Shown here piece by piece: positions 4,467 to 52,748 of a stretch of 64,000 nt of DNA. The stretch lies in NCBI GenBank assembly GCA_020852835.1, contig JADZAC010000076.1:1-64000 (forward strand), given 5' to 3'. A model generated the notes under the pieces. That model worked only from the letters and a program-made list of their open reading frames with translations. It was not told the DNA's origin and made no database searches. The position numbers and the translations under genes are program-made. Source of the DNA: Flavobacteriales bacterium (GTDB lineage: Bacteria > Bacteroidota > Bacteroidia > Flavobacteriales_F > PHOS-HE28). Within the stretch, counting starts at the first letter, position 1; each line of letters opens with the position of its first letter.

Positions 4467-4664
4467 GGAGCAGGTGCATGATCAGTAGCGCATGGTTCGT
4501 AGTGCACAGCTCGCAGAACGGGGATGGAGGATAGCGTAGTGAACGGGGCCGACGACCTGCCGGCCACGCCCTACGGCCTACGGCCAACCATGCGATGGCC
4601 CTGGTGATGGTGCGAGCATGGACCGGTCGCAGGAAAGCCTCCCAACCCCGACCTTTGCACCGCG

Positions 4665-5810
4665 ATGTTCAACACCCTCGACCGTTACATCATCAGGCAG
4701 TTCCTGGGCACCTTCTTCCTGATCCTGGTGCTGATCATGAGCATTGCCGTGGTGTTCGACATCAGTGAGAAGACGGAGGATTTCGCCAAGACCTCGGCCA
4801 GCGTGCAGGAGATCGTGGTGGACTACTACGTGAACTTCGTGATCTACTACAGCAACCTGTTCAGCGGGCTGCTGATCTTCATTGCCGTGCTGTTGTTCAC
4901 CAGCCGTTTGGCGGGCCGCACCGAGGTGATCGCCATGCTGAGCAGCGGGGTGAGCTACCCGCGCTTTGTGCAACCTTACCTGCTCACGGCGACCATACTC
5001 ACCGTGCTGTCGCTGTATGTGAACATCTTCGTGCTGCCCGCCGCCAACCGCACGCGCCTGGCCTTTGAGAAAGCACACATCTGGACCACATACAAGCTGG
5101 AGGAGAAGAATGTGCTGCGCGAGATCGCCCCCGGCGAGATCGTGTACTTCGAGGCCGTGGACATGCCCAAGCTCACCGGATACCGTTTCAGCCTGGAACG
5201 GTGGGAGAACGGGCAGCTGCGCTCCAAGCTGCTCAGCGACCGCGCCGTGTACGATACGGCCAGCGGGCGCTGGGCCGTTTACGATTATGTGATCCGTGAG
5301 CTCCCCCCGGACCCGGGCATGGCGCCTGCGGGCCCCGGCCCCGCGCTACCGGCGCTGGCGGGCGATGCCGTGATGCCGCGCGAGCGGATCACGCGCGGGG
5401 CGCGGCTGGACACGGCCATCGCGCTGAAGCCTTCCGACCTGGGGCAGCGCCTGGCCATTGCCGCCGCCCTTGACCGCCAGGAGATCGCCGACTTCATCGA
5501 GGCCGAAAAGGCGCGCGGGGGCAGCACCGTGGCCTACTACGAGGTGGAACAGCAACAGCGCACCTCCTATCCGTTCGCCACATACGTGTTCACGCTCATG
5601 GGCGTGGGCATTGCCAGCCGCAAGGTGCGCGGCGGCACCGGGGTGCACATGGTGCTGGGCGTGCTGCTGTGCCTGCTGTACGTCTTCGCCATGAAGATGA
5701 CCACGGTGGCCGCCACCAACTCCGCCTTCAACCCCACCTTGGCGGTATGGTTGCCCAACATGCTTTTCGGCATCATCGCCGTGTGGATCTATTGGAAGGC
5801 GCCGAAGTAG
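4665..5810 (+). CDS. LptF/LptG family permease
   Basis: MFNTLDRYIIRQFLGTFFLILVLIMSIAVVFDISEK, YjgP/YjgQ-type N-terminus and C-terminal TM helices. Confidence 0.85.
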   Translation: MFNTLDRYIIRQFLGTFFLILVLIMSIAVVFDISEKTEDFAKTSASVQEIVVDYYVNFVIYYSNLFSGLLIFIAVLLFTSRLAGRTEVIAMLSSGVSYPRFVQPYLLTATILTVLSLYVNIFVLPAANRTRLAFEKAHIWTTYKLEEKNVLREIAPGEIVYFEAVDMPKLTGYRFSLERWENGQLRSKLLSDRAVYDTASGRWAVYDYVIRELPPDPGMAPAGPGPALPALAGDAVMPRERITRGARLDTAIALKPSDLGQRLAIAAALDRQEIADFIEAEKARGGSTVAYYEVEQQQRTSYPFATYVFTLMGVGIASRKVRGGTGVHMVLGVLLCLLYVFAMKMTTVAATNSAFNPTLAVWLPNMLFGIIAVWIYWKAPK

Positions 5811-5814
5811 GGAC

Positions 5815-6732
5815 CTACCAGGCAAATCTCTCGGCCAGCGCCCTGAAATCGGACGTGAGGTCGCCGGTGCGCACCGGTTGGAAGCCGGCCAAGCGGGCAT
5901 CGCGCGCCACCTGCATGCCCTGCAATTCCAGGTGCTGGTCCACGAAGAGCAGCTCCGTATCCGGGTACACGGACCGCAAGGCTTCCACAAGCTCCACCAC
6001 GGACCGGTCCTGCTCCACCAGGTCGAAGGTGCCCGCCAGCGGGTTGGGGCCGAGCAAAGCCGCCAAAGTGCCTACGGCGGCATCCACGTGGATGAAGGGG
6101 CGGCGCTGGTGGCCCGTGCCCCGCACGGTGACGCGGCCTTGGAAGTGGGCTTGGAAGAGGAAGCGGTTGATCACCGCATCGAACCGCATGCTGCGGCCGT
6201 AGCCGTGCACATTGCCCGAGCGCAGGATCACTACCTGGCGGTGATCGCCCAGGCGTTCCATGTGGCGTTCGCCCCGCCATTTGCTGTGGCCGTAGGCCGT
6301 GCGGGGCGAGGGGTCGTGGCCGCTCTGCGCCGACCCCTGCCCGGAGCCATAGACCGAGGCGCTGCTGAGGTAGATCACGCGCGCCTTCGGGGCCACCTCC
6401 TCGATGGCGTAGACCACTTCCGCCGTGCCCCAATGGTTCACCTGTTCAAACTGGCTGTGGCTGGCATCGGAGAAGGGGGTGGTGACCTTGGCGGCGAGGT
6501 GGTACACCACATCGCAACCGGCCAGTTCCTGCAGCAGGCGGCGTGAATCGAGCACATCACCCTGCACGAAACGCACCTTGGCGCGGCCCAGCTTGGGGCC
6601 CATGAAGATGCCGAAATGGCCGCGGTCCAGCAGGTCGTACACCACCAGTTCGCCCACACGTTCATCCCGGGCCAGCGCAGCGCACAGTTCTGCTCCGAGG
6701 TATCCGGCACCGCCAGTCACCAACACTTTCAT
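5815..6732 (-). CDS. NAD-dependent epimerase/dehydratase family protein
   Basis: MKVLVTGGAGYLGAELC Rossmann motif, YLSSASVYG, YGHSKWRGE. Confidence 0.85.
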   Translation of the reverse strand: MKVLVTGGAGYLGAELCAALARDERVGELVVYDLLDRGHFGIFMGPKLGRAKVRFVQGDVLDSRRLLQELAGCDVVYHLAAKVTTPFSDASHSQFEQVNHWGTAEVVYAIEEVAPKARVIYLSSASVYGSGQGSAQSGHDPSPRTAYGHSKWRGERHMERLGDHRQVVILRSGNVHGYGRSMRFDAVINRFLFQAHFQGRVTVRGTGHQRRPFIHVDAAVGTLAALLGPNPLAGTFDLVEQDRSVVELVEALRSVYPDTELLFVDQHLELQGMQVARDARLAGFQPVRTGDLTSDFRALAERFAW

Positions 6733-7403
6733 GGTTGTTTGATCTTGTCCGCCCCCAGGTCGGTGTTCAGCCCGCATTCCGTTTTCTTCAGCCCGTACCA
6801 GCGGCTGGTGCGTTCATCGTAGCCCTCGATGGCCTTGCGGGTGTAGGGCATGTCACCGATGCTCAGGTAACCTTGGGCCTCCAAGGGGTGCGGGGGCAGG
6901 TGGTGTTCCTGGATGTAAGCGTGCACCATCCGCGCGTTCCAGTCCAGCATGGGGTGGTAGCGCAGGCAGCCGTATGCCGCCGGTTGTTCCACGGCCATGG
7001 CCTTGCGCACCGCGCTCTGGTCGGCGCGCACGCCGTTGATCCATACGTCATACTCGGCCAACACCCGCTCCATGGGCTGCACCTTGTTGAGGTAGGAGCA
7101 GCGGTCCGGGTCCCAGCTGTACATCAGCGCGCCTTCGGCGTTGAGCTGCTGGCTCTTGGACACCAGGGGCCGCAGCTGGATGAACTGCAGGCCCAGCAGT
7201 TCCTTCAGCGTGTCGCGGTAGCGCAAGGTCTCCGGGAAGAGGTAGCCCGTGTTCACGTAGTACACCGGAATGGCGGGGTCGATGCGCATGAGCATGTGCA
7301 GCATCGGTATGCTGTGGCCTTGGAAGCTGGTGGAGGCGAAGATCTTCTTCCCCTCTTGGCGGAAGGCCTGCACCCGATCGCGGAACTGCTCGTAGGTGGG
7401 CAT
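6729..7403 (-). CDS. Phosphoadenylyl-sulfate reductase family protein (CysH-like)
   Basis: ASTSFQGHSIPML, VYYVNTGYLFPET, INGVRADQS, C-terminal KKTECGLN; overlaps the next gene by 4 bp (ATGA). Confidence 0.85.
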   Translation of the reverse strand: MPTYEQFRDRVQAFRQEGKKIFASTSFQGHSIPMLHMLMRIDPAIPVYYVNTGYLFPETLRYRDTLKELLGLQFIQLRPLVSKSQQLNAEGALMYSWDPDRCSYLNKVQPMERVLAEYDVWINGVRADQSAVRKAMAVEQPAAYGCLRYHPMLDWNARMVHAYIQEHHLPPHPLEAQGYLSIGDMPYTRKAIEGYDERTSRWYGLKKTECGLNTDLGADKIKQP

Positions 7404-7499
7404 GGCGCAAAGTAGGCACAGGTCATTCACACCCCGGCTGACGATCGGCAGTTTTGGCCCCGCTCCCCCGGCCCCGCCGCTACGCGCCACCTTTGCGGC

Positions 7500-8198
7500 A
7501 TGTTGGCCGAACGTTTGTTGAAGGAGGTCTTCGCGTTCAACCTCAAGCATGCCAAGCTGCCGCGGCACATTGGCGTGCTGGACCCCTTCCATGGGGAGCA
7601 CGCGGCGCAGGTCAGGGGCATGGTGACGGAATTCCACCGCCGCTACTATGGCGATGAGCGGCCGCGCATGCTCATGCTGGGCATCAACCCCGGAAGGCTG
7701 GGAGCAGGCAGCACCGGCATATGCTTCACCGACACCAAGCGGTGCGAGGCGGACCTGGGGATCCCGGTGACCGGCATGCGCACGCACGAGCCCAGCAGCG
7801 ACTTTTTCTACCGCGTGGTGCGGGCCGCAGGCGGGGCCGCGGCCTTCTACGGAAAGGTTTACGTGCAGGCACTTTGCCCGCTTGGTTTCACCCGCACCGG
7901 GCCCAAGGGCACCCCCGTGAACCTGAACTACTACGATGATGCCGCTTTGCAGCGCGCTGTTGCGCCCTTGGTGGTGAACTGGGTGCACGGCCTGATCGCC
8001 GCCGGCTTGCGCACCGATGTGATGTGCTGCATCGGCACCGGCAAAAACCTCGCGTTCCTCAACAAGCTGAATGCCGAACACCGCTTCTTCGAGCGCATTC
8101 TTCCGCTGGAGCACCCCCGCTTTGTGATGCAGTACCGCTTCAACCAGGTGGATACCTTTATTGACCGGTATTTGGCCGCTTTGGCGCAGGCCGGTTGA
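7500..8198 (+). CDS. SMUG2-like uracil-DNA glycosylase superfamily protein (DUF4918-type)
   Basis: MLMLGINPGRLGAGSTGICFTDTKRCE motif A-like region; HPRFVMQYR near the C-terminus. Confidence 0.7.
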   Translation: MLAERLLKEVFAFNLKHAKLPRHIGVLDPFHGEHAAQVRGMVTEFHRRYYGDERPRMLMLGINPGRLGAGSTGICFTDTKRCEADLGIPVTGMRTHEPSSDFFYRVVRAAGGAAAFYGKVYVQALCPLGFTRTGPKGTPVNLNYYDDAALQRAVAPLVVNWVHGLIAAGLRTDVMCCIGTGKNLAFLNKLNAEHRFFERILPLEHPRFVMQYRFNQVDTFIDRYLAALAQAG

Positions 8199-8241
8199 AA
8201 CGGCCGGTAACCTTTTTCCGGCCAGTGCGACTATCCGCTGC

Positions 8242-8787
8242 ATGTCCGCCGATCCACGCACCGAATTCATGCAGGCCTACGGCCCCTGCCACGAGCCGTT
8301 CACGCGCTACTGCACGGCGCTGGCCTACGGCCGCATGGACGTGCAGGACCTGATGCAGGAAGTACTGCTCAGCGCCTTCCAGCAATTCGACCGGATCCGC
8401 CGCAAGGACCAACTGCTGCACTACCTGGTGCGCGCCGCCCGCAACCGCGCCGTGAACCACTGGCGGCGCAACCGCCGCCAAGCCGATCTGTGCGAAGGCC
8501 ACCTTGCCCGCCTGAAGGACCGCGGCGCCCCGGCCGATCTGCTGGCCGACGTGGGCATTCTCTACGGCGCCTTGGACAAACTGCCCGCCCCGCTCCGCGA
8601 GGCGCTGGTGCTCTTCGAAGTTTCGGGCTTGCCCTTGGCCGAGGTGGCCGCCATACAAGGCATTACGCCCAATGCCGCCAAAACCCGGGTGAGCCGCGCC
8701 CGCGCCGGTTTGCGCGAGCTGCTCGCCGACCGGCCTGTGCCGGTGCGCAACGCCCTGTTGAACTCCCTGGCCAGCCTGTTGCTATGA
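8242..8787 (+). CDS. RNA polymerase ECF-type sigma factor
   Basis: LMQEVLLSAFQQFDRIR region 2, LPAPLREALVLFEVSGLPLAEVAAIQGITPNAAKTRVSRARAGLRELL region 4. Confidence 0.85.
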   Translation: MSADPRTEFMQAYGPCHEPFTRYCTALAYGRMDVQDLMQEVLLSAFQQFDRIRRKDQLLHYLVRAARNRAVNHWRRNRRQADLCEGHLARLKDRGAPADLLADVGILYGALDKLPAPLREALVLFEVSGLPLAEVAAIQGITPNAAKTRVSRARAGLRELLADRPVPVRNALLNSLASLLL

Positions 8788-9962
8788 ACACCCCGGACGA
8801 AAAGGACGAACTGCTCGCACCCTTGCGTGAACTGCCCGTGGAGGTGAGCCTCCAGGAGGTAGGCCGCATGGTGGCCGCATTCCCCTTGGCCATGGGCCTC
8901 ACGGCATGGCTCGCCCACCTCGCCAAAACCAACCTCAACACCTTGATCATGACCAGCGCAGGCACCCTCCTTCTCGGCACCGGCATCTTCCTGCTCAGCG
9001 GCAATGGCCCGCAACAACCGCCCGCGCCAGCTCCCATGGCCCATACCGTTGCGGCTCCGGCCCGCTCCACAAGCACGTCCCCGATCGAAGCCCCGAAGAC
9101 CGCAGTGCCCCGGCCCGGACCAGCGCATGCACCTCCCACGCCAGCGGCAGCAATGCCCGTGGACACTACCGCCCCGCCCCGACCGGCCGCCCCTGCAGCC
9201 CCAGCGCCCCTGCCGGTGGCTGCGGCTGCACCACTGCCCGCCGCGCAAATTCCACCGGCAGCACCCAAATCCCAGACCAATGAGCGCGTGTTCAACCTCT
9301 CCGGCTTCACCGGCATCGCCTTGTCCTCCAGCGTTGATGTGCGCTTGGAAGAAGGCGCATTCTCCGTGGTGGCCACCGGAACCCAGGAACTGCTGGACCG
9401 GCTGGACATCAAAACGGCGAGCAACCTGTTGGCCGTGGGCATGAACAGCGGCAACCGGGGCATGCGCAAGGACCAGCACCTCATGCTCACGGTGCGTATG
9501 CCGCGCGTTGAACAGCTCATCGTGCAAGGCTCGGGCTCCATCCATGCCACGCCCCTCACCAACTCCCCAAACCTGGAGCTCAGCGTGATGGGATCGGGGG
9601 ATATCAACCTGGTCGGAACCGGCAAAGTCGGCACGCTCACCATCAACGTGACCGGTTCGGGGGATGTGGCCTGTGTGCAGGTGGATGCTTCCAAAGCCAC
9701 CGTGGTCAACGTGACCGGCAGCGGCGACGTGAACCTCAGCGGCCGATCGGACCGGCTGCAGGTCAATGTGGTAGGCAGCGGAGACGTGAAGGCCGAAGGG
9801 CTGACGGCGATGCATGGCGAGGTGAACTTGTCGGGCTCGGGCGATGTGTTCATGGGCCCCGCCAACAGCCTGCAAGTGGTTAAGATGGGATCGGGCGATG
9901 TGCACACCACCGGGGCTACCGACGTGCAAACTTCCCCGGAAGATGACGGAGGGGAAGAATGA
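8784..9962 (+). CDS. Membrane-anchored head GIN domain (DUF2807-like) protein, candidate anti-sigma partner
   Basis: ATGA overlap with the upstream sigma gene; short cytoplasmic N-terminus, one TM segment, Pro/Ala-rich linker, then repeated GSGDV/I beta-helix motifs. Confidence 0.75.
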   Translation: MNTPDEKDELLAPLRELPVEVSLQEVGRMVAAFPLAMGLTAWLAHLAKTNLNTLIMTSAGTLLLGTGIFLLSGNGPQQPPAPAPMAHTVAAPARSTSTSPIEAPKTAVPRPGPAHAPPTPAAAMPVDTTAPPRPAAPAAPAPLPVAAAAPLPAAQIPPAAPKSQTNERVFNLSGFTGIALSSSVDVRLEEGAFSVVATGTQELLDRLDIKTASNLLAVGMNSGNRGMRKDQHLMLTVRMPRVEQLIVQGSGSIHATPLTNSPNLELSVMGSGDINLVGTGKVGTLTINVTGSGDVACVQVDASKATVVNVTGSGDVNLSGRSDRLQVNVVGSGDVKAEGLTAMHGEVNLSGSGDVFMGPANSLQVVKMGSGDVHTTGATDVQTSPEDDGGEE

Positions 9963-10040
9963 ACGGGCCCGCAGGTGGGCCCGCAGTTGGGCCCCTAGGC
10001 GCCCGTAGTGCCCGAGATCTTGCACCGGCAAACAGCGCAG

Positions 10041-10063
10041 GGCCGCCCCGAACAGGGGCGGCC
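10041..10063. terminator. Hairpin between convergent genes, putative bidirectional terminator
   Basis: Perfect 9-bp stem GGCCGCCCC-GAACA-GGGGCGGCC; no long T-tract. Confidence 0.5.
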
Positions 10064-10116
10064 TTGGCGTGCCCGGCTGGTCCCGGCCGCGTTACAACCC
10101 GCAGGGGAGCAGGCGC

Positions 10117-10506
10117 CTAAACCGGCTTGCGGAACAGGTAGCGTGTGAGGAAGATGCCCGTATTATCGGTGCTCTGCACGCCGGCCGTCACTTCGTACAG
10201 CTCCCAGCCCTCTGCGGTGTAGCGGTTGATGGCATCCACGATCACCCGGTCGTTGTTGGCCACGTTCTTGAAGTTGATGCCCGCCAGGCTGTAAAAGTTC
10301 AGCAGGTCCTTGCCCACCTCCTGGTCGCCTTCATCGCTGACGATCACCCGTGAACGCCCCAATCCGCCCGGGATCACGCTCTCGATGGTGCTGAACTGGC
10401 GGTAAGTGTACGGGGTGGCCTGGGGCGCCGGGCGGAAGCTGTATCCGGCGAACAGGGCGGCGGCAAAGCCGGCACCGAGGAGGATGGAACGGAAGTTTGT
10501 GGTCAT
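10117..10506 (-). CDS. hypothetical protein, DUF4177-like C-terminus
   Basis: N-terminal hydrophobic segment; VIVDAINRYTAEGWELYEVTAG. Confidence 0.55.
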   Translation of the reverse strand: MTTNFRSILLGAGFAAALFAGYSFRPAPQATPYTYRQFSTIESVIPGGLGRSRVIVSDEGDQEVGKDLLNFYSLAGINFKNVANNDRVIVDAINRYTAEGWELYEVTAGVQSTDNTGIFLTRYLFRKPV

Positions 10507-10558
10507 GACTGGGTGTTATTTTGTACGTTGGGCCAGCGAATTTGCGCGATCCCATCGA

Positions 10559-10995: not shown

Positions 10996-10999
<4 letters not shown>
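10559..10999 (+). CDS. hypothetical secreted protein
   Basis: Signal peptide MTMTQRCIILLLAMSMGLWARAQ; ATGA overlap with the next gene. Confidence 0.55.
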
Positions 11000-12765
<1,766 letters not shown>

Positions 12766-12779
12766 CCCAGAACACCGCC

Positions 12780-21965: not shown

Positions 21966-22534
21966 CGCTCCGAGAGGAACTGCACCAGCTTCCATACGGC
22001 ATGCCCGCGGTGGCTGATGGCATTCTTCAGTTTGGCATCCAGCTCGGCAAAGGTGAGGTCGCTCATCTCCGGCAGAAACACCGGATCGTAGCCGAACCCG
22101 TTAGTGCCGCGCCGCGCGCTGGTGATCGATCCGCGCACCTCCCCCTCGAAGAGGTGCTCCCCGCGGTCGTCCACCAGTGCGATCACCGTGCGGAAGCGGG
22201 CGCTGCGGTCCGTGGCGCCTTCCAGCTCCTTGAGCAGCTTGGCCATGTTGGCATGGTCGTCCTTGGCCGCCCCGGCATAGCGCGCAGAGAACACGCCCGG
22301 CGCTCCGCCCAGCGCATTCACCTCCAGGCCGGAATCGTCGGCGATGCAGGGCAGGCCCGTGCGCGCACGGGCAAAGCGCGCCTTCTGCAGCGCGTTGGCG
22401 GCGAAGCTGTCGCCGGTTTCCGGCAGGTCCGCAGGCAGGCCGGCATCCTTCAGTGACAGAAGTTCGATCCCGGGCAACATGGCGTGCAGCTCGTCGATCT
22501 TGCCGGGGTTGCCGGTGCAGAGCAGGTATTTCAT
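21956..22534 (-). CDS. Non-canonical purine NTP pyrophosphatase (RdgB/HAM1)
   Basis: LLCTGNPGKIDEL, CIADDSGLEVNALGGAPGVFSARYAG, GFGYDPVFLP, ISHRGHA. Confidence 0.93.
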   Translation of the reverse strand: MKYLLCTGNPGKIDELHAMLPGIELLSLKDAGLPADLPETGDSFAANALQKARFARARTGLPCIADDSGLEVNALGGAPGVFSARYAGAAKDDHANMAKLLKELEGATDRSARFRTVIALVDDRGEHLFEGEVRGSITSARRGTNGFGYDPVFLPEMSDLTFAELDAKLKNAISHRGHAVWKLVQFLSERQR

Positions 22535-22620
22535 GCAGCGAAGGTGGTAAAAGGGATCCGGGCGGCCTGCATGCGCCGGCGGCACGGCGCACGGCCCCCA
22601 AGTGCGGCACATGCCGCGGC

Positions 22621-28452: not shown

Positions 28453-28622
28453 ACAGGGCGGAGGAACGCCACCGATGGCCGCCATGCACATGACCAACCA
28501 CACCACCTCCGCCACGCCCGTCCACAAGGGCTCGCCGTACTGCTGCCCGGCCACCTCTCCCGATGTGCCCGGCATCACGGATCTTCAGCCGGAGCGCCTG
28601 CACGCCTGAACACATTCGCGGA

Positions 28623-29945
28623 ATGCGCATCCTCTTGCTCACCACCGCATTTCCACCTTCCAACCTCACGGGTGCGCGCCGGCCGTACCACATGGCGCGC
28701 ATGTTGCAAAGGGAGGGCCATGAGGTGACCGTGGTCCACGGCATGCACACCGGAACGAATTCCTGGCCTGCCGGTCTCGAGGGCATCCGCACGCTTCCAC
28801 TGGCCCTCACCAACATGCCCCCGGGCATGCCCCTGCACCAACGCCTGCTGGCCCGCCTATACCACCGCCTTACCGGCACCGCATTGCAAGGGCCGCTGCG
28901 CGTACTGGCCGACCTGATGCTCCCCTTGGACCACGGACAGCGCTGGGACATCACCCCGGATGCACTGGTGCGGCAGGCCGGGCCGCAAGACCTGGTGATC
29001 GCTACGGGCCCATCTTGGTCCACGTTCGACTTCGGGCACCATTTCGCCCACCGGACCAACAAGCCCTTGGTGTTGGACTATCGCGACCCGTGGTCCATTG
29101 CACGCCCTGAGGTAGGCCTGCACATGATCACCCACATGGGGCGCGGGCTGAGCGGAATACTGCGCCGCAGGCGCATGTGGCGGGCCGAACGCAAATTCGC
29201 CGGCAAGGCCGTGGCCATCACCGCTGCAACACCCCTGGTGCTGCAAAATGCGCTGGAGGTGATCGGCCCTAAACCCGCCTGGGTGGTGTACAACGGGTTC
29301 ACATCCGGAATACCGGCAAAGCATCAAGCGCCGAACAAATTGTTCACCGCTGTGTACCTGGGGTCGGCCTACCGCGAACAGGAATGGGACATTGTACAGG
29401 CAGGCCTGTCTTTGTTTGCCAAGCAGCAACCCCGGCTGGCCGAACACTTCAACCTGATCATTGCCGGCGCCCGGACCGAGATGGACACCCGGCTGAACGG
29501 CCTGCAAGCCTGGATGGAAAGCAACTCCCTGGTGACCCCCATGAACCGCCTCGGACAGGCCGATGCCGTTGCCTTGCAGGCCCAAGCCGACCTGTTCCTG
29601 CATGTGGGCTTCAAAGGCAAGCGGGGCATCTTCCCCATCAAGTTCATCGAATACCTCGGCACAGGCATTCCCATCCTTCAGGCCAGTACCGGAACTGACC
29701 TGGTGGAAGAAGCACTGAACCGCACCGGGGCAGGCTTGGTGGCCGGTACGCCGGCTGCTTTTGCCGCCTGCTTGGCCGAACAGGTGCATGCGTGGCTCGT
29801 GGGCGGGGCAACGCCTCGCCCGGTACAGGCTGAAGTGCTCACCACCTACAGTTGGGAACACCAGGCCCGTGCGTGGCATGCGTTCCTGATGGACCGTTGC
29901 AACACCGCCGGAGCGGCTCCCGCCACTGCGCCATTGAGCACCTGA
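28623..29945 (+). CDS. Glycosyltransferase (type B', GT4-like)
   Basis: FPPSNLTGARRPYHMARMLQREGH, LDYRDPWSIARPEV, FPIKFIEYLGTGIPIL; clear paralogue of the 24653 CDS. Confidence 0.82.
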   Translation: MRILLLTTAFPPSNLTGARRPYHMARMLQREGHEVTVVHGMHTGTNSWPAGLEGIRTLPLALTNMPPGMPLHQRLLARLYHRLTGTALQGPLRVLADLMLPLDHGQRWDITPDALVRQAGPQDLVIATGPSWSTFDFGHHFAHRTNKPLVLDYRDPWSIARPEVGLHMITHMGRGLSGILRRRRMWRAERKFAGKAVAITAATPLVLQNALEVIGPKPAWVVYNGFTSGIPAKHQAPNKLFTAVYLGSAYREQEWDIVQAGLSLFAKQQPRLAEHFNLIIAGARTEMDTRLNGLQAWMESNSLVTPMNRLGQADAVALQAQADLFLHVGFKGKRGIFPIKFIEYLGTGIPILQASTGTDLVEEALNRTGAGLVAGTPAAFAACLAEQVHAWLVGGATPRPVQAEVLTTYSWEHQARAWHAFLMDRCNTAGAAPATAPLST

Positions 29946-32954: not shown

Positions 32955-33800
32955 ATGCCGCAACAACCCCTGATCTCGGTGATCATGGCCGCGTACAACG
33001 CGGCGCCGTTCATCGCCGAAGCGGTAGGCTCGGTGCTCGCACAAACCTGGGAGCGCTTTGAACTCATCGTGGTGGACGATGGCAGCACGGACGGCACCGC
33101 TGCGGTGCTGGCCACGTTCACCGACTCCCGTATCCGCGTGGTGCGCCAAGCCAACGCGGGTGTAAGTGCCGCCCGCAACCACGGGCTCGACATGGCCAGG
33201 GGGGAATTCGCAGCCTTTTTCGATGCCGATGACCTGCTGCCGGCCAACAGCCTTGCCTGCAGGGCCCGGATCCTCATCGAGGAGCCGGATACCGCTTTTG
33301 CCGACGGGGCAGTACTGCGGATGGACCATGCCACGCGCGTCCTTCAGCCCGTCCATCAGCCCACCTTCCGGGGCCTTCCCTTCCCCCTGCTGATGGCACT
33401 GTGCCCGGAAGTGTTTTGCGGAAACACCTGGATGATGCGCCGATCGGTTGTCGGCGGGTGCCGTTTCCCGGTGCACATGAAATACGCCGAGGACCTGGCC
33501 TTCTACCTCCAACTGGCCCGCAGTGGCCGCTACGGCGCCGCCACCGAACCCGTGCTCTACATGCGCCGCGGCCATGTTTCGGCCATGACCGACCTGGACG
33601 GCCTGGACCAAGGCTACCTGCAGCTCTACCGCTTTGCCGGCCAATTGGCGCCCCCGCCCGGGCAGCAGCAGCTCGATGCCATGTGGCACCGGATCCGGCG
33701 CGTGATGGCACGCGGCTACCTCAAGGCAGGCAGGCCGCTGGCCGCGTTCAGGGCGTGGAGCCGCCAACGCCCCGGCCCGCTTCCCGCGCCAGGGCGCTGA
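32955..33800 (+). CDS. Glycosyltransferase family 2
   Basis: [48 protein letters not shown]; start could be 32922 or 32931. Confidence 0.9.
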
Positions 33801-34992
33801 ACATCTCCTCGTAGACCCGCTCAGCGATCTCCACCGAACGGTGTTCCTGGGCCAAGGCCATGATCGCCGACCGGTCCACGCCTTGGCCCACAAGCTCCTT
33901 CATGTGTTCAACGGCCCGGTCCACGCTTCCCGGCACGGCCAGATCGAACAAGGCACCGGCGTACGGCCGCTCCTGGATGATCCGGTGGTCATCACCAACG
34001 CCGTTGCAAAGCAGTATCGGAAGGCCGTTGGCCCAATACTCCCCGTTCTTTACTGGCGATTGGTACAGCCCGTGGCGGGCATAGCGGATCGTGGAGAAAG
34101 CCAGGTCTGAAGCACTCAGCCACGCCGGGATACGGTCGTGCCGCTCATAGCGTACGATCACCTTCCCATGCTCCAGCCCGGCCGCCGCCAACCGCCGGTC
34201 TACCTGCTCTACCGGCATGCTGGTCAGTAGCACCAACCGGAAATCCCGCCCGAACACCTCACTGGCCCGCTTGAAAATGGCGAAGGCTTCCTCATCGTAG
34301 TACAAACCGCCGAACTTCCCCACGTACACCCCCACGACCGCATGTTCCCACCCCAGTGCCGACCGCATCTTGGAACGGGCTGCGGCATTGTAGCGGAACT
34401 GCTCCAGCTCCGTGATGGAGGGGATGATGCGCACCCGGTCCTGCGGTACGCCCAAGCCCATTAGATAGGCCGCATAGTTCCGTGTAACGGTGACCAAGTA
34501 CCTGGCCGAACGCCGTTGCATCCGTTCCAGCCAGGTGGCCATGCGGTAATACAAGCCCTGGCGCGACCAGGTGCCCGTGTCCGCCATGTAGCCCGAATGC
34601 GGTTCAAAGGATTCCACGACGTAGGGCACGGCCGTGAGCTTATGCACCAGGTGCGCCAAACCGCCGGCCAAGGCCCCTTTGGCATCCACCACATGGATGC
34701 CATGCACCTTTACCAGCCTGCGTAGTACGAGCACCAACCGCACGAACAGTTCCGCTTTGGCCCACAAGCCCCGGCCCTTGTTGCGCATAGGCACCCCGAT
34801 GTGCTCCACGTGCGGCAGTTCTTCCAGGCCCGGCACCCGTGGATCGCCGCCCCGCTCCACGGTGACCAGCCACACGCGTTCCACCAGGTTGCTCCGCGAC
34901 ATCAGGCGCAGGTACGGCACAATGGTGCTGCGCACGAGCGGTTCCTCCGCGCTCCAATAGCTGATGAACAGCAACCTGATCCCCTTGGCCAT
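33748..34992 (-). CDS. Glycosyltransferase family 4-like
   Basis: [80 protein letters not shown]; overlaps the convergent GT2 gene by 53 bp. Confidence 0.8.
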
Positions 34993-35063
34993 GGCACCGG
35001 CGGCGAATGTAACCGGAGCGCTCCCCGCTTGCCTTGCACAGGCAACCTTTACTTTGGCAGGCC

Positions 35064-35942
35064 ATGTATCCTTCGCGCACCTGCCCATCGTGTGCATCCA
35101 CGGAGCGCACCCCCCTCCGCGGATACGAGCGCCACCACCTGGCCCGTTGCACGGCTTGCAGCATGATCTACGCCTTCCGGCAACCAACGGCCGAAGAGCT
35201 CGCCTCCACCTATGGCGACTACCCTGTCATCCCCGCGCTCAGCCCCCTCACACGGCAGCGGTACCTGGAGCTATTGCGCGCTTTTGAACCGTTCAAGAGC
35301 ACGGGCCGGTTGCTGGATGCCGGTTCGGGCAGCGGCTACTTCCTGGATACCGCCATGGCCTGCGGCTGGCAAGCGTATGGCAGCGAATACGACCCGCAGG
35401 TGGTGGAAGCCTGCCGAAGGCGGGGCATCCATATGCAGCAAGGCCTGCTCAACCCCGCCAACTATGAAGCCGGATCGTTTGATGTGATCACCAGCTTCGA
35501 GGTGCTGGAACACCTGGTGGACCCCGCTCGGGAGCTGGCCCATTTCACCACGCTGTTGCGGCCGGGAGGCGTGCTTTACCTCACTACGCCCAACTTCAAC
35601 GCATTGGCCCGGCACATCGGCCGCGACCGTTGGAACATGCTCAACTACCCCGAGCACCTCAACTATTACACGGGCCGTTCCCTTTCCCGCGCCATCAGCC
35701 GGGCGGGCCTGATCCCCGGCCGCTGCCGTTCCACCGGCATCAGCATCATGCGCATCCGCAATGCCATGGTGCCAGTGGAGAAGGCCCAGAAAAACCATGA
35801 TCCCGGCAACATGGACCAAGTGCTGCGAACACGGCTGGAGGGCAACCCGGTGCTCCGTTGGTTGAAATCCGCAGTGAACGGGGTGTTGTCCGCAACCGGC
35901 CAGGGCGATTCCCTGAAGATCTTCTGCCGCAAACCGGGCTAG
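35064..35942 (+). CDS. Class I SAM-dependent methyltransferase with N-terminal zinc-ribbon-like CxxC motifs
   Basis: CPSCASTERTPLRGYERHHLARCTAC; RLLDAGSGSGYFLDTAMACGW. Confidence 0.85.
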   Translation: MYPSRTCPSCASTERTPLRGYERHHLARCTACSMIYAFRQPTAEELASTYGDYPVIPALSPLTRQRYLELLRAFEPFKSTGRLLDAGSGSGYFLDTAMACGWQAYGSEYDPQVVEACRRRGIHMQQGLLNPANYEAGSFDVITSFEVLEHLVDPARELAHFTTLLRPGGVLYLTTPNFNALARHIGRDRWNMLNYPEHLNYYTGRSLSRAISRAGLIPGRCRSTGISIMRIRNAMVPVEKAQKNHDPGNMDQVLRTRLEGNPVLRWLKSAVNGVLSATGQGDSLKIFCRKPG

Positions 35943-43302: not shown

Positions 43303-44370
43303 CTACTTGGCCATCCCTTCCACCAGTGCAAGAAACTTCCGCCTTTCGGACGGAGGGAACTTGTCCATGATGCGTTGCCGCGCCCGTTTGCCCATGGCCT
43401 CCAGATCGGCAGCCAAGGCCAGTTCGATCAACTGCTGCAAGCGTTCCGGGTCCTTGCGCTCCAATAGGAAGCCCGTATCACCCACTATTTCCGGCAAGGC
43501 GGCCACGGTGCTGGCAATGGGCACGCATTCGCACAGCATGGCCTCGCAAGGCGCACTGGGGAATCCTTCCCAAATGCTGAGCTGCAAGTAGAACCGGTGC
43601 CGTGCATAGAACCCCGGAAGTTCCTCATAGGGGATGAAGTTGTGCAGCGCCACGTTCGGAGGCACCCGTTCATACTTCATGGTCGGCGTATTGCCCAGAA
43701 TGGTGAACGTACACTGCGGAAACCGGTCGGCCATGGCGAAGATCAGGTCGATGCCCTTGCGATGGAAATTCGGCGGGTTCATCTGGGCCGCCGTAATGAA
43801 GCTCATCGGCTGCTTCTCCACATCGCAACGGAACCGTGCAGGATCGTACCCGTAGGCGATCACCGTGCAGGGCGTACGGATCTCCGGGAACAGCCCACGA
43901 TAGCCCTGTACCTGGGGATCGCGCGGATCGGAGGTGTAGGCCTGTCGGCTTTCCACCAAGGCCTCATCCACCGGTGCCAGGTGGTGCGCCAATTGCAAGG
44001 ACCATTTGGTGATGGCCCCGAGCGGCCAACGGGTATAGTTGCCGTAGCGTATCGAAGGAAACTTCACGCAGTCCGTGCCGCCGAGCACCAGCAGCACAGT
44101 CTTCCCCATCAGGCGGCCCAGCACGGCCGGCAGCAAGGAGTGGTAGCCGGCAAACTGGCACACGGCGATCCGGCTTGATGGCAGGTGGCGTGCCAGGAAG
44201 AGCAACTGGCGCAAGAGGGTGAGCGGGGTATGCCACTTGCGCCGGGGTTTGAACTGAAAAACCTTCACATCAAACCTTTCGCCCAACAGGTTGATGTCAT
44301 TGGCGGCAAAGGACACCAGCACGGGCGTGCAATAAACCAGCTTGGGCCGGGCACCGGCAGGCTTCACCAT
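43303..44370 (-). CDS. Glycosyltransferase family 4
   Basis: GIDLIFAMADRFPQCTFTILGN, LSIWEGFPSAPCEAMLCECVPIASTVAALPEIVGDTGFL. Confidence 0.87.
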   Translation of the reverse strand: MVKPAGARPKLVYCTPVLVSFAANDINLLGERFDVKVFQFKPRRKWHTPLTLLRQLLFLARHLPSSRIAVCQFAGYHSLLPAVLGRLMGKTVLLVLGGTDCVKFPSIRYGNYTRWPLGAITKWSLQLAHHLAPVDEALVESRQAYTSDPRDPQVQGYRGLFPEIRTPCTVIAYGYDPARFRCDVEKQPMSFITAAQMNPPNFHRKGIDLIFAMADRFPQCTFTILGNTPTMKYERVPPNVALHNFIPYEELPGFYARHRFYLQLSIWEGFPSAPCEAMLCECVPIASTVAALPEIVGDTGFLLERKDPERLQQLIELALAADLEAMGKRARQRIMDKFPPSERRKFLALVEGMAK

Positions 44371-44374
44371 GCGG

Positions 44375-44382
44375 CGAAACTA
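44375..44382 (-). promoter_or_regulatory. Candidate -7 box TAGTTTCG immediately upstream of the 44370 start codon
   Basis: TAGTTTCG-CCGC-ATG on the minus strand (4-nt gap). Confidence 0.45.
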
Positions 44383-44421
44383 CGGGCGGCGGTTCATGCG
44401 CAACCCCTTTCTTTGCGCCCC

Positions 44422-45120
44422 ATGCTCCTCGGCTCCGGCTTGATCGCACGCGCTTTCGAACACTTCCGGGATGATGCCCGCGTGCTCATCTTCGCCTCGG
44501 GCGTGTCCAATTCCACCACGGCAACGGAAGCGGAATATGCCCGCGAACGGAACCTGCTGCTGCACCAGGAAGGCACTTCCGCCCGCCTCGTGTATTTCAG
44601 CACCTGCAGTTTGTTCGACCCTGCCCTGGGTGGATCGGGGTACATCCGCCACAAACTGGCCATGGAGGAGCTGGTCCGCAGCCGGTTCCCGGACCACTTG
44701 ATCTTGCGCTTGCCCAACGTGGTGGGCCATACGCACAACCCGCACACCTTGACCAACCACATCCGCAACTGCCTGCTCTCCGGAGAGCCGCTCACCATAC
44801 AGACCAAAGCCTGCCGGTATTTGATGGGTGCGGACATGGCGGCGATGGCATGCACACCACTGATCCTTTGCCCGACCTTGGACGAACGCACCGTGAACGT
44901 GTGCTTGGACAAGCCCGTGCCGGTACCGGACCTGGTGGGGGCCATGGAAGCATTGGTTGAACGCAGGGCCAAGGCACAGCCCGTGGACAAGGGTTCCTGC
45001 TATGAGGTGGACAATACCCTCTTCAAGCGCCATTGGCTGGCAACCATGAAGCTCCCCTGGCCTGATGACGACCATTGGCGAACGATGTTGGCCAGCAACT
45101 ACGGGAATGCGGCACAGTGA
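44422..45120 (+). CDS. NAD-dependent epimerase-like protein (short SDR)
   Basis: MLLGSGLIARAFEHF, LVYFSTCSLFDPALGGSGYIRHKLAMEELV, LRLPNVVGHTHNPHTLTNHI. Confidence 0.7.
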   Translation: MLLGSGLIARAFEHFRDDARVLIFASGVSNSTTATEAEYARERNLLLHQEGTSARLVYFSTCSLFDPALGGSGYIRHKLAMEELVRSRFPDHLILRLPNVVGHTHNPHTLTNHIRNCLLSGEPLTIQTKACRYLMGADMAAMACTPLILCPTLDERTVNVCLDKPVPVPDLVGAMEALVERRAKAQPVDKGSCYEVDNTLFKRHWLATMKLPWPDDDHWRTMLASNYGNAAQ

Positions 45121-45138
45121 GGATCGGGCTGGCCTGGT

Positions 45139-45903: not shown

Positions 45904-46001
45904 GGGAAGTGGATGGCCCTGTTGGTGCCAGGTGGTGATTCCTGCCACCATGGCGTTGTTGGGGGGGCGAAAATTAACTTGCGCCGCCCCAAACCGCCCG
46001 G

Positions 46002-46682: not shown

Positions 46683-46707
46683 CGGCTGGGGTCCATCCGG
46701 CGAAGGC

Positions 46708-48207: not shown

Positions 48208-48235
48208 TCCGTCCGCAAGATGCGCAATGACCGCG

Positions 48236-49504
48236 TCACAGGGTGTTGAGCTCCTCCACCACCTGCCCGCATGTGGCTTTCCGCGACCACCTCGGGTCGG
48301 GTTCACTGGTCCCAGCCGTGAACATGTCCTTGATGTGCCCGCGCTGCTCCATCAAGCCCGGCCTGTTGATCACGGCATGCGGTGCCCGGTCCAGCACGCG
48401 CGACACATCGCCTTCCACCGGGCCAACGGCCAGGATGGGCCTGCCCGTGCTCACGTATTCGAAGAGCTTGCCCGGCAGGATGCCCATGAGGTTGGGCGTG
48501 TCGTTCACCAGCAACAGCAGGGCCCGTGCACGCTGTATATGGCGCATGGCTTCTTCATGCGAAACGCGCCCGGTGCGCTCCAAGTGCCCGCCCAGCCCGG
48601 CCTGCGCAACGCTTTCCGCAATGGTGTGGTCCACCGGGCCCACGAAGCGCAGCTTGAAGCGGGCGGCAAAAGCCGGGTCTTCATCGCAGAGCTGCTTCAA
48701 GGCACTCCACAGTTCCGGGGCATTGCGTGAAGGCGAAAGCGAGCCGATGTGTACCAGGCTGTAGGCTTCATCCACCGGCTCCGACGGTGATGGCAGGTCA
48801 TCGGGGTCGTAGCCGTTGGTGATCACCTCCACGCGTTTCGCGCCGAGTTTTTCAAGGTCTTGCGCCCAATGCCAGCTCACGCAGGTCACCCGGTCCGCTT
48901 CGCGCAGCACCTCCCCTTCCAACCGCTTGTGCTTCGCATCGGCCCAGCTGGTCAGTTTCAGTTGCACATAAAAGTCGATGTCCGTCCACGGGTCGCGGAA
49001 GTCGGCGATCCACTTCACGCCCAGCGCACGCTTGAGGCCCAGGCCGATCAAATGCATGCTGTGCGGCGGGCCGGTGGAGATGATGGCGTCCACCGGGTGC
49101 TCTTTCAAATAGGCCTTCAGGAACTTCACGGAGGGCCTCACCCACCACACCCGCGCATCGGGAATGAAAAAATTGCTGCGCACCCACAGCGCGAAGTCCT
49201 CTTTCCAACCGCCTTGCTTCTTCTCGTTCAAGAACCCCACTTGCACTTTCTCCTTGGTGCTGCGGCCGGTGAAGCGCTTGTACAAATTGAACGGTTCGGT
49301 GATGGGCCGTTTGATCACTTCGAGGTCACTGCGGACATCCTTCTCCAAGCCGGGATCATCGGCCACCACTTCGGGGTTTGCCGGCGTGTAGATCACCGGT
49401 TGCCAACCGTGCTCCGGCAACAGCTTGCTGAGCTTCAGCCAGCGGTACACGCCCGCGCCACCATTTGGCGGCCAGTAGTAGGTGATGATGAGGACGCGTT
49501 TCAT
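48236..49504 (-). CDS. Glycosyltransferase family 4
   Basis: MKRVLIITYYWPPNGGAGVYRWLKLSKLLPEHGW, WIADFRDPWTDIDFYVQLKLTSWADAKHKRLEGEVLREADRVTCVS, KLFEYVSTGRPILAVGP. Confidence 0.88.
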   Translation of the reverse strand: MKRVLIITYYWPPNGGAGVYRWLKLSKLLPEHGWQPVIYTPANPEVVADDPGLEKDVRSDLEVIKRPITEPFNLYKRFTGRSTKEKVQVGFLNEKKQGGWKEDFALWVRSNFFIPDARVWWVRPSVKFLKAYLKEHPVDAIISTGPPHSMHLIGLGLKRALGVKWIADFRDPWTDIDFYVQLKLTSWADAKHKRLEGEVLREADRVTCVSWHWAQDLEKLGAKRVEVITNGYDPDDLPSPSEPVDEAYSLVHIGSLSPSRNAPELWSALKQLCDEDPAFAARFKLRFVGPVDHTIAESVAQAGLGGHLERTGRVSHEEAMRHIQRARALLLLVNDTPNLMGILPGKLFEYVSTGRPILAVGPVEGDVSRVLDRAPHAVINRPGLMEQRGHIKDMFTAGTSEPDPRWSRKATCGQVVEELNTL

Positions 49505-49534
49505 GGTGCTTTACTCCCTGTTCTCGTAGGGTGA

Positions 49535-49637
49535 AGTTCGTAGGGCGTAGGGCGTAGGGCACGGTACTCCATCGATGTCCACTCCTTTGTACACCCTGCA
49601 CGCTGCCCGTTGCCCTACGCCCTACGCCCTACGAACT
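49535..49637. repeat. Inverted repeat of heptamer units (CGTAGGG x3), 27-bp perfect arms
   Basis: AGTTCGTAGGGCGTAGGGCGTAGGGCA at 49535-49561 is the exact reverse complement of 49611-49637. Confidence 0.88.
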
Positions 49638-49661
49638 ATTCACAGCCCTCCACACAACGAA

Positions 49662-52484
49662 CTATTCACTGCGTCCTTCTGCACCCCGTGACCGTTTCCA
49701 CTCCACTCCCAGCGCCAACAGCACCAAGGCCAACAACACGAAGGAACCGATCGACGCCACGGTGCCGCCCACCTGGTAAGGCTTGCTTTCAATGTAGAAC
49801 CGCACGGTGTGCTCCCCTGCGGGCACCTGCATGGCGCGCAGCACGTAGTCGGCGCGCACGTACGGCGCGGGCTTGCCGTCGATCTCCGCCTTCCAGTCCG
49901 GTCCGTACCAGATCTCGCTGAACACCACCACGCCGCCGTTGGCGCTGTTCACCTTGTAGGTGAGCGCATTGGTGCGGTACTCAAACAGGCTGGCCTTGGC
50001 GGCGGGGTCGGGCTTGGCAGCGCCGGCCACTTCCCCGAAGTAGCGGGCATCCACCAAGGCAGTGCGCTTGGGATCGATGGTGCCCAGCGCGGTGATCTCC
50101 TCATCGGCGTTCTTCACCTGGCGCACCTCGTCCACGAACCAGGCGGAGCCCAGTGCATGGGTGTTGGTGATGGGCGCGCGGTCTTCTGCGTAAATGATGT
50201 ACTTGGTGTTGAGCATGTTCAGCACGGGCTGGTGCGCCAGCACGCTGTCGATGCGCTGCATGGTGGCGCCTTCGCCGAAGGCGCCGATCACGTTGTTCAT
50301 CTCGGGCGAGATCCGGAATTCGATGAGCTCCTGGTAGCGCTTGAGCTTGGCACCGTGGTAGCCGCCAATGCTGCGGTGGAAGTAGCTCTCCCGCGTGCTT
50401 TGGAAGGTGCCGCGCAAGGACAGCACGCGGAAATCCGTGGTGCGGCGCAGGCTGGCAAAGCGCGTGTACACTTCGTCCTCCTTGCTCACCAGGCGCTGCG
50501 TGCCGCTGAGCTTGCTCTTGGCCTGCTTCAACCGCGCAATGGCCTGCTCGTAGTCGGCATCGGTGGCCGCGTTGCTTTCCGCCTGCAGGATGGCCATATC
50601 CGCCGGTTGCGGCTTGTAGGGGCGGTCGCTGCTGCTCTGGTCTTCCCAGGCGATGTATTGCCCCTTGGCATCCTTGTCGTTGTTCACCCAGCGGCGGTCC
50701 ACGCTCCAGAGGTCGCCCAGCACCAGCGCGCCGATGCCCGCGAACAGCACGGCCGGGCCAATGCGCCTGCGGCCGAAGAGGAACAACAGGCCGCTGCCCA
50801 GGAGCACCAGCAGCAGGCTGCGCCAGGCATCGGCGCTGGCCACGCCCGTGCGCAGCGCTTTCAGGTTGTCGATGTATTGCTGTGTGCCCGGGTTGTTGGC
50901 GGCCTGGGCGCTGAGCTGCGCCACTTCCTTATCGCTGAAGAACTCCAGGAAGCTGGCCGGGACCACGGCCAACAGCAGCAGCACCAAGGACAAGGCCCCT
51001 GCCGTGATGAGGAAGGCCTTTTCCGCAGGTTTGTCCCATTTGTCCCCTTTTACCAAGCGCTGCAGGTAAAGCACGCCCAGCACGGGGGCGGCCAGTTCCA
51101 CGATGACCAGGATGATGGTGACCGCGCGGAACTTGTTGTAGCCGGGCACGTGGTCCAGGAAGAAGTCCGTGAGCGGCATGAAGTTATCGCCCCAGCTGAG
51201 CAGCAGCGTGAGCAGGAACGCGGCAAAGAGCGCGTACGCCAAGGTGTCCTTCCACAGAAACAAGCCCGCCAGCAGGTATGCGATCAGCAGCAGGCCCACC
51301 AGCACCGGGCTGCCTAATTGGCCCATGAGCACCACCATGGGGATGGCCGCCAGCATCCACCAGCGCGCACGGGCCTCGGCCCCTACCAGCAGCAACAGCA
51401 TCAGCAACACCACCACGGCCCCGATGTACACCGGCCCGCTGGTGAATTCCTGGTCGCCCCAGTAGTTGTTCACGTATCCGCCGCCCTGATAGATGTCCAG
51501 CACGGCCTTGCGGAAACCGGGGTCCTGGATGGCGGCAAGGTCTTCCTGGCTTTGGATCATCGATCCGCTGGCGCCGCCCTTGATGTTGGGCACCAGCAAG
51601 GAGAGGCTCTCCTGCTTGCCGTAGCTCCAGTGCGTTACGTAGTCGCGGTCCAGGCCGCTGGTCTTGTTGGCCACGTCGGGTGCACCATCGGGGCCGATGG
51701 TGAGCTCGCTTTTGCCACGCGTGGTGTACTGCCCGTACTCCCACGTGCTCCAAAGCAGGCCCGTGTTGCACAACAGGGCGAAGGCCAAGGCCACCACGCC
51801 CAGCGCGGCCCTGCCCGCAAAGCCGGGCAGCTGCTTCTCCCGCACGGCGCGCACCAGCTCGGCCAGGCCGAACAAGGCCAACAACAGGGCCAGGTAGTAG
51901 GTGACCTGCAGGTGGTTGGCGTGGACCTGCATGGCGAGGAACAGGGCGAACAACGCGGCGCCCAGCAGCTTGCGCCCGCGCAGCAGCACATACAGCCCGC
52001 CCAGCACCATGGGCATGTAGCCCACCGCCGTGGCTTTGCTATTGTGCCCCGCATGGATGATGATGAGGAAGTAGGAGGATAAAGCGAAGGCGATGGCCCC
52101 GATGAGCGCCAGCCATGGATCCACCCGCAGGCAGGAGAGCAGGATGAACATGCCCACCAGATAGAGGAAGATGAACGAGGCCGGGCGCGGCAGGAAGCCG
52201 TGCATCACCGCATCCAGCCAGTTGAGCGCATTGGAAGGCCATACCACCCCGATCTGGTAGGCGGGCATGCCGCTGAACATGCTGCCGGTCCACAAGGGTT
52301 CATCACCAGCGTATGCCTCGCGGTGCTCCACCATTTCCTGGGCCATGCCCCGGTATTGCATGATGTCCTGCTGCTTCAACCGCTTGCCTTCCAGCACCGG
52401 ACTGAAGTAGCCTACGGCCAACACGAAAAATGCAGCAATGGCCACCGCGTACGGCAGCCATTTCTTCCAAGGGGCGTTGCTCAT
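49662..52484 (-). CDS. YfhO family membrane protein
   Basis: Large polytopic protein; LKQQDIMQYRGMAQEMVEHREAYAGDEPLWTGSMFSGMPAYQIGV; C-terminal soluble domain ending in IESKPYQVGGTVASIGSFVLLALVLL. Confidence 0.82.
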   Translation of the reverse strand: MSNAPWKKWLPYAVAIAAFFVLAVGYFSPVLEGKRLKQQDIMQYRGMAQEMVEHREAYAGDEPLWTGSMFSGMPAYQIGVVWPSNALNWLDAVMHGFLPRPASFIFLYLVGMFILLSCLRVDPWLALIGAIAFALSSYFLIIIHAGHNSKATAVGYMPMVLGGLYVLLRGRKLLGAALFALFLAMQVHANHLQVTYYLALLLALFGLAELVRAVREKQLPGFAGRAALGVVALAFALLCNTGLLWSTWEYGQYTTRGKSELTIGPDGAPDVANKTSGLDRDYVTHWSYGKQESLSLLVPNIKGGASGSMIQSQEDLAAIQDPGFRKAVLDIYQGGGYVNNYWGDQEFTSGPVYIGAVVVLLMLLLLVGAEARARWWMLAAIPMVVLMGQLGSPVLVGLLLIAYLLAGLFLWKDTLAYALFAAFLLTLLLSWGDNFMPLTDFFLDHVPGYNKFRAVTIILVIVELAAPVLGVLYLQRLVKGDKWDKPAEKAFLITAGALSLVLLLLAVVPASFLEFFSDKEVAQLSAQAANNPGTQQYIDNLKALRTGVASADAWRSLLLVLLGSGLLFLFGRRRIGPAVLFAGIGALVLGDLWSVDRRWVNNDKDAKGQYIAWEDQSSSDRPYKPQPADMAILQAESNAATDADYEQAIARLKQAKSKLSGTQRLVSKEDEVYTRFASLRRTTDFRVLSLRGTFQSTRESYFHRSIGGYHGAKLKRYQELIEFRISPEMNNVIGAFGEGATMQRIDSVLAHQPVLNMLNTKYIIYAEDRAPITNTHALGSAWFVDEVRQVKNADEEITALGTIDPKRTALVDARYFGEVAGAAKPDPAAKASLFEYRTNALTYKVNSANGGVVVFSEIWYGPDWKAEIDGKPAPYVRADYVLRAMQVPAGEHTVRFYIESKPYQVGGTVASIGSFVLLALVLLALGVEWKRSRGAEGRSE

Positions 52485-52735
52485 CAATGCTCGGGTTTGT
52501 CCTTGATCACTTCGAAGTCGGCATCCTCCACATCTCTTGGCGGGGGGCGCCGCTCCGTCCCTTCCACCCGCTCGATGCGCACTTCCCCCTTGGGCCGCTG
52601 GGGATCGGCCGTCCAGCGCGTGCCGCTTCCGGGCCGTTTGCCCTGCTGCACCTTCATCCACAGCCGCAATAGCTGCCAAATGATGAGCAGGATGAGGATG
52701 GTGCGCAGGGTGCCGTTGGCCGAGAGCAGGTACAT
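52484..52735 (-). CDS. DUF4834-like small membrane protein
   Basis: MYLLSANGTLRTILILLIIWQLLRLWMKVQ; C-terminal DVEDADFEVIKDK. Confidence 0.65.
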   Translation of the reverse strand: MYLLSANGTLRTILILLIIWQLLRLWMKVQQGKRPGSGTRWTADPQRPKGEVRIERVEGTERRPPPRDVEDADFEVIKDKPEH

Positions 52736-52740
52736 CGGCG

Positions 52741-52748
52741 CGAATGTA
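52741..52748 (-). promoter_or_regulatory. Candidate -7 box TACATTCG
   Basis: TACATTCG-CGCCG-ATG on the minus strand (5-nt gap to start 52735). Confidence 0.45.

Follow-up and report, generated by a model that had tools for sequence, protein, structure and literature searches.

A Bacteroidota -7 promoter box lying directly before start codons predicts leaderless and near-leaderless genes in a GC-rich Bacteroidia genus

The sigma-A promoters of Bacteroides and Flavobacterium carry a characteristic -7 box, TAnnTTTG (PMC6847099, PMC9723704, PMC7366714), and the phylum works without Shine-Dalgarno signals, making use of other upstream bases (PMC6847099). In Flavobacterium johnsoniae, transcription starts 4-5 nucleotides (nt) past this box, and 87% of the leaders are longer than 10 nt, with about 13% of 10 nt or less (PMC6847099). 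A survey of leaderless genes based on Pribnow-like boxes reported them from one Bacteroidetes/Chlorobi genome out of 37 and considered it unlikely that a large fraction had been missed (Zheng et al. 2011); later work on gene starts described AT-rich, non-canonical ribosome sites as characteristic of the FCB group, and leaderless mRNAs were raised as a possible cause of the upstream biases in Bacteroidetes (Nakagawa et al. 2017). The present analysis concerns a 64,000-nt stretch of a Flavobacteriales bacterium (GCA_020852835.1, contig JADZAC010000076.1, positions 1 to 64,000; hereafter the window), in which a preliminary description had noticed a -7-like box almost abutting the ATG of many genes and had proposed that these genes are leaderless or nearly so.

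The window corresponds to contig C76 of genome G000 (3.44 Mb, 96 contigs), of the class Bacteroidia. In a scan with purB, its closest match is the metagenome-assembled genome 'Bacteroidetes bacterium SZAS-76' (76% identity). Base-by-base analysis covered 1.78 of the 3.44 Mb, about half of the genome, of which 1.71 Mb lies beyond the window, with a GC content of 62%; statements on whole genomes are pattern counts. Genes were called from codon usage and coding potential and their starts were picked blind to any motif, all gene starts being computational. The gene-based set comprises the 788 ATG genes whose upstream sequence is free for 35 nt or more (free-standing genes), and d denotes the number of bases between the end of the box and the start codon.

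Random-seed motif discovery upstream of these 788 genes converges on TACCTTTGCC, i.e. TAccTT(T/C)G, and the resulting matrix (T73 A82 c50 c58 T95 T100 T51/C33 G76) matches the Bacteroidota sigma-A -7 element genome-wide, the identity that had been assigned to the box from the window. The distances have their mode at d=4 and cluster at 4-7, a second broad group lies at 16-28, and almost none falls below 4, the expected number of sites jumping from 2.2 at d=3 to 53 at d=4. At a fixed score cut-off, which yields a proportion (15-16% of the free-standing ATG genes) and not a census, the box is found at d=4-7 in 124 of the 788 genes against 6.2 in shuffled sequence (about 20-fold), and at d=0-3 in 6 genes against 6.0. 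A count by distance against a shuffled control had been proposed as a check in the preliminary description, and the outcome it named as refuting, a lack of positional enrichment at 4-8 nt across the genome, is thereby excluded. The strict forms TANNTTTG and TANNTTCG behave in the same manner, with no site at d=0-3 and with 9 and 8 sites, respectively, at d=4.

A comparable distribution is obtained when gene calls are left aside and every TANNTTTG or TANNTTCG on both strands of the 1.78 Mb is counted by its distance to a following ATG. For TANNTTTG, 14, 8, 15 and 12 sites occur at d=4-7 (expected 4.0 each) versus 2, 3, 3 and 3 at d=0-3; for TANNTTCG, the corresponding numbers are 19, 15, 6 and 18 (expected 4.5) versus 4, 2, 2 and 1. 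The counts thus stand at background level at d=0-3 and are three- to four-fold up at most of d=4-7. An alternative view is that the boxes are a product of chance or of base composition. Single boxes are indeed degenerate, and CANNTTCG shows a codon-phase pattern without promoter meaning; nevertheless, the 20-fold excess over shuffles, the lack of enrichment at either d=0-3 or d=60-63 and of any d=4-7 peak in the reverse complement, and the replication in six genomes leave such an artefact a negligible probability, the controls excluding it. The codon-phase explanation holds for CANNTTCG in bulk counts, where a period of 3 is seen, and not for TANNTTYG. As a separate observation, free ATG genes also show a maximum at d=4 for TAnnTTGY, known as motif SM5 in F. 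psychrophilum (9 sites, 0 at d=0-3), and this second promoter class may also yield leaderless genes.

Near boxes are a minority class, and most boxes stand farther upstream: those at d=15-35 fit the same matrix as the near ones, and many other genes have a far box at 15-40 nt. The near box prefers genes that come first in a transcript. It precedes 70 of 341 divergent ATG genes (20.5%) and none of the 170 overlapping codirectional (operon) ATG genes; among other codirectional ATG genes it is present in 29 of 196 with a gap of 36-100 nt (14.8%), in 8.8% of those with a gap above 100 nt and in 8.9% of those with a gap of 0-35 nt (divergent versus all coupled genes, P=1e-10). It is likewise tied to the start codon, occurring before 121 of 788 ATG genes and 5 of 145 GTG/TTG genes (P=3e-5). 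The box is interpreted as a promoter because its sequence is that of the sigma-A -7 box, because near and far boxes share one matrix, and because its dependence on gene context is promoter-like. If it were instead a Kozak-like or ribosome-binding signal for translation initiation, acting in the mRNA, the fixed short distance to the start codon would be readily accommodated, in a phylum that uses upstream bases other than Shine-Dalgarno sequences (PMC6847099). Such a signal would, however, be equally needed by overlapping operon genes, where the box is absent, and by closely coupled genes, where it is scarcer; the frequent occurrence of the same box 15-40 nt upstream elsewhere, and its identity with the -7 box of the phylum, also make a translational role very unlikely.

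The sigma factor expected to read such a promoter is of the short type found in the phylum: the genome holds a 291-residue sigma-A open reading frame (287 residues when counted from MRQLKITK), which has no long N-terminal region and whose alignment to other sigma-A/RpoD proteins falls in their C-terminal parts. Two sigma-A-type genes starting MRQLKI are present, at L001:1006-1881(-) and L002:1000-1878(-), the latter adjoining a gene whose product, judged by eye, ends like polynucleotide phosphorylase in KH and S1 regions; with a second primary-like factor, promoters could be shared out between the two. In total, 22 matches to Sigma70 region 2 occur in the genome, two of them in the window, near 1.8-2.0 kb on the minus strand and 8.3-8.5 kb on the plus strand.

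The distance between box and ATG is what points to leaderless transcription. The lower edge at d=4 matches the F. johnsoniae spacing; a promoter at d=4 would therefore start on the A of the ATG, and one at d=5-7 would give a leader of 0-3 nt. If transcripts have to include the A of the start codon, selection is expected to produce an abrupt limit at d=4. In genes with leaders, the share of G after the box is 37% at 3 nt (promoter-like), 22% at 4 and 18% at 5 (leader-like), so that composition shifts 4-5 nt after the box, the same distance as the onset of the near boxes. Moreover, C occupies position -1 in 89% of the d=4 genes, and we infer that the C-rich bases before the ATG would leave its A as the nearest favoured purine on which to start. 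No Shine-Dalgarno signal is seen, G being depleted and not enriched at -14 to -7; this applies to nearly all genes of the phylum and does not discriminate between the classes. Apart from the box, 69% of the ATG genes have C at -1 and 52% have it at -2, operon-internal ones included, with only 4% having T at -1, and leadered genes are enriched in A at -14 to -11. The C at -1/-2 and the A at -14 to -11 would together form a Kozak-like context that is separate from the promoter box.

Taken together, the near boxes are very probably sigma-A promoters that give leaderless or near-leaderless (0-3 nt) mRNAs. In the proposed mechanism, they would act as the usual -7 elements for sigma-A in Bacteroidota, enriched in GC to TAccTT(T/C)G and with a C-rich spacer behind them, and RNA polymerase would begin 4-5 nt downstream, either on the A of the start codon or 1-3 nt ahead of it. 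The resulting mRNAs would depend on ribosomes able to recognise an AUG at the 5' terminus by means of initiator tRNA, and other genes would carry this promoter at a distance of 15-40 nt, together with an A-rich leader free of Shine-Dalgarno sequence. Leaders of 0-3 nt are predicted for about 16% (about one in six) of the free-standing and about 20% (one in five) of the divergent ATG genes, which on our best reading would be several-fold above the frequency in the mapped Bacteroidota species. The motif, its distribution of positions, its context dependence and its conservation are direct observations; the onset at d=4, the gene context, the preference for ATG and the conservation in the genus described below all fit the prediction of leaderless or near-leaderless genes made from the window.

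Conservation was followed in six genomes of the genus, the genus-mates being 66-74% identical in the protein concerned, and in more distant families. The full pipeline, run on genus-mate sequence, finds TACCTTCGCC de novo in genome G141, and in the pooled genus-mate set the box lies at d=4-7 in 31 of 241 genes versus 5 at d=0-3. Before rpe, whose N-terminus is fixed by the pattern M-A/P-H-hydrophobic-APSLLSADF, the box is kept at d=4-6 in all six genus genomes, the flanking DNA having diverged beyond recognition, and it stands at d=4 in members of three other families. Before surE it is found at d=6-7 in five of the six genus genomes, and three distant genomes carry it at d=5-6; before purB it lies at d=6 in SZAS-76. 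Among wider orthologs, the near box is retained in 4 of 13 near-box genes versus 1 of 55 genes with no box and 5 of 42 with a far box; the strict comparison at the same codon is sparse, the ATG being common to 48 of 122 pairs.

Several points weigh against this interpretation. The mapped species have few such mRNAs, with leaderless messages at 5.5% of the mRNAs in F. psychrophilum and leaders below 10 nt at 3.7% in Bacteroides thetaiotaomicron (PMC9723704, PMC7366714). Not all orthologs keep the distance: the purB box lies at d=9-19 in five genus-mates (overall range 6 to 19), and that of apbC lies at d=8-30 among the genus-mates (overall range 7 to 30). The wider ortholog comparison is consistent with the prediction and is small. 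No positional peak of a -33 TTG/TTTG element is present upstream of the box in either the near or the far class. Finally, exact start sites, leader lengths and the route of initiation are deduced from sequence. The -33 element is weak as a defining feature, because it is hardly evident in F. johnsoniae too (PMC6847099), and the claim is limited to the -7 box and does not extend to a complete two-element promoter.

The variation before purB and apbC between orthologs shows that box distance can drift and that a gene can switch between near and far modes. The same variation, together with the mostly leadered mRNAs of cultured relatives, would suit an arrangement in which the near boxes are real promoters of secondary or minor importance, the main transcription coming from distant promoters and the working mRNAs carrying leaders. 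In that case, however, neither the retention of the strong rpe and surE near boxes in most or all genus genomes despite diverged flanks nor the sharp edge at d=4, which implies a position constrained relative to the ATG, would be expected, and we regard this arrangement as improbable.

Within the window, all ten strings quoted in the preliminary description are present at the positions and distances it gave. On the plus strand, CATCTTCG (3314..3321) lies at d=8 to the ATG of tgt at 3330 (7.5 bits; TGT domain of Pfam from residue 13), GACCTTTG (4650..4657) at d=7 to that of the LptF/LptG-like gene at 4665 (9.4 bits; LptF_LptG from residue 7), and CACCTTTG (7488..7495) at d=4 to that of a UDG-family gene at 7500 (9.1 bits; UDG domain). 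On the same strand, CACATTCG (28611..28618) stands at d=4 before a glycosyltransferase gene at 28623, with a marginal 6.6 bits and an ambiguous start, the caller having chosen 28692. The methyltransferase gene at 35064 is preceded at 6-7 nt by TTACTTTG (35049..35056) or, shifted by one, by TACTTTGG, which scores 9.6 bits at d=6; here, the motif-blind caller chose 35163. On the minus strand, CACCTTCG (22539..22546) lies at d=4 to the ATG of Ham1/rdgB at 22534 (7.9 bits), a start fixed by the Ham1 domain from residue 4, and TACATTCG (52741..52748) lies at d=5 to that of a small protein gene at 52735 (9.6 bits), a start called independently of the motif. A further TACATTCG at 35004..35011 on the minus strand, 11 nt before the ATG of the gene at 33748-34992, provides a contrast of intermediate distance. 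The glycosyltransferase gene at 44370 (Glycos_transf_1), with TAGTTTCG at 44375..44382 on the minus strand (d=4; 8.6 bits), is divergent from the gene at 44422, with TTTCTTTG at 44408..44415 on the plus strand (d=6; 8.9 bits). The 51 bp between them (44371-44421) would hold two back-to-back near-leaderless promoters, so that the coding start of each gene falls inside the predicted upstream promoter region of the other.

The tenth site, TACTTTGC at 7407..7414 on the minus strand, is a weak fit (7.0 bits at d=3). It lies 3-4 nt before the ATG of a PAPS-reductase-like (cysH) gene at 7403(-) and contains no TAnnTTTG, only TACTTTG, a shortened TAnTTTG or a TAnnTTGY-like form; PAPS_reduct begins at residue 21, and the coding-potential caller chose a GTG at 7637 instead. 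The other nine sites score 6.6-9.6 bits at d=4-8 with the genome-derived matrix. The chance of a match at a single quoted site over 8 offsets is 0.001-0.011, and at -12 several of the boxes depart from the consensus T, with C or G in its place; single boxes are therefore weak, their strength is collective, and for this reason the set was tested genome-wide. The quoted examples thus hold as a set, several of them being weak when taken singly. As for the names given to the genes, Pfam supports PAPS reductase, UDG, Ham1 (rdgB), LptF/LptG, TGT, the glycosyltransferases and the methyltransferase, and returns no match for 52735(-) and 44422(+). An Rfam search of the window gave 0 matches.

The starts other than the proposed ATG that were called for 7403, 28623 and 35064, and a likelier methionine four codons into the YicC-like gene at L014:8617, would be in line with misplaced ATGs, true starts lying downstream and leaders being longer. 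For rdgB, LptF/G, tgt, rpe, surE and purB, on the other hand, domains or orthologs fix the start within a few residues, and misplacement would blur, not create, the sharp onset at d=4. A general misplacement of the starts is accordingly extremely unlikely.

The form ending in TTCG had been suggested as a lineage variant, and this is borne out: C occupies position -6 in 33% of the boxes in the present genome (62% GC) and in 50% of those in the more GC-rich genus-mates (66% GC). The variant seems to reflect a loosening of the box, driven by GC content, in the present lineage. As a mark of leaderless genes it was ruled out, being nearly as common in far boxes (28%) as in near ones (35%).

The spread of the arrangement was assessed in 149 genomes of the class by whole-genome counts of TANNTTYG-N(4-7)-ATG, with N(60-63) as the control. 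The class median of the near/control ratio is 1.18; the six genus genomes reach 3.1-5.2, the four genomes of family f41 (G041, G078, G108 and G137) reach 2.8-3.9, and the next highest value is 2.1. A near-box excess with z>4 is present in 38 of the 149 genomes, and the N(0-3) control agrees for this genus and f41. The ratio flatters this genus, high-GC genomes having fewer chance matches, and in absolute excess per Mb families f41 and f37 lie above it, with several other families similar. At N(20-23), the excess in this genus amounts to about 40-50% of the near excess, and f41 shows no clear excess at 20-23 nt; family f41 is thus predicted to be almost wholly near-leaderless. These counts suggest that near-leaderless promoter use is lineage-variable in the class and not unique to the present genome. 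It is on balance probable that near-leaderless transcription is major in several Bacteroidia lineages, as a sizeable minority here and possibly dominant in f41; this would overturn the notion of phylum-wide rarity that three mapped species had suggested, and would tie the extent of its use to lineage. Separately, G075 and G105 (family f37) contain 339 and 216 copies, respectively, of the reversed control string ACNAGGTCGGCGT, an unexplained abundant repeat that occurs once in the sister genome G037.

How start codons are chosen without Shine-Dalgarno sequences in Bacteroidota is an active question, in which leaderless mRNAs have been dismissed as a contributor on the basis of their small number in three model species. 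Our limited search of the open-access literature found no description of a GC-rich Bacteroidota lineage in which -7 boxes often lie next to the start codon. Two groups rich in predicted leaderless genes, this genus and another family, would offer a natural comparison within the phylum, and the -7 box could be used for start placement in gene finders and for promoter design in GC-rich Bacteroidota.

Compared with the sigma-ABfr promoter, the present one has the same box sequence, with invariant TA and TT positions and a near-absence of G before TT, and the same short sigma-A without region 1.1, and it would share the 4-5 nt to the presumed start. It differs in having C at both n positions and T or C (sometimes G) at -6, in lacking a visible -33 element, and in the large share of boxes that abut the start codon. 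F. psychrophilum, F. johnsoniae and B. thetaiotaomicron use the same promoter with a small leaderless class, whereas a larger share is predicted here. With the leaderless genes of Actinobacteria and Deinococcus-Thermus, the predicted genes share a box a few bases before the ATG, the presence of leadered genes alongside, and a comparable frequency (19% and 39% predicted on average, respectively; PMC3160421). In those phyla the box is a -10 box, whereas here it is the Bacteroidota -7 box, which surveys for Pribnow boxes do not recognise.
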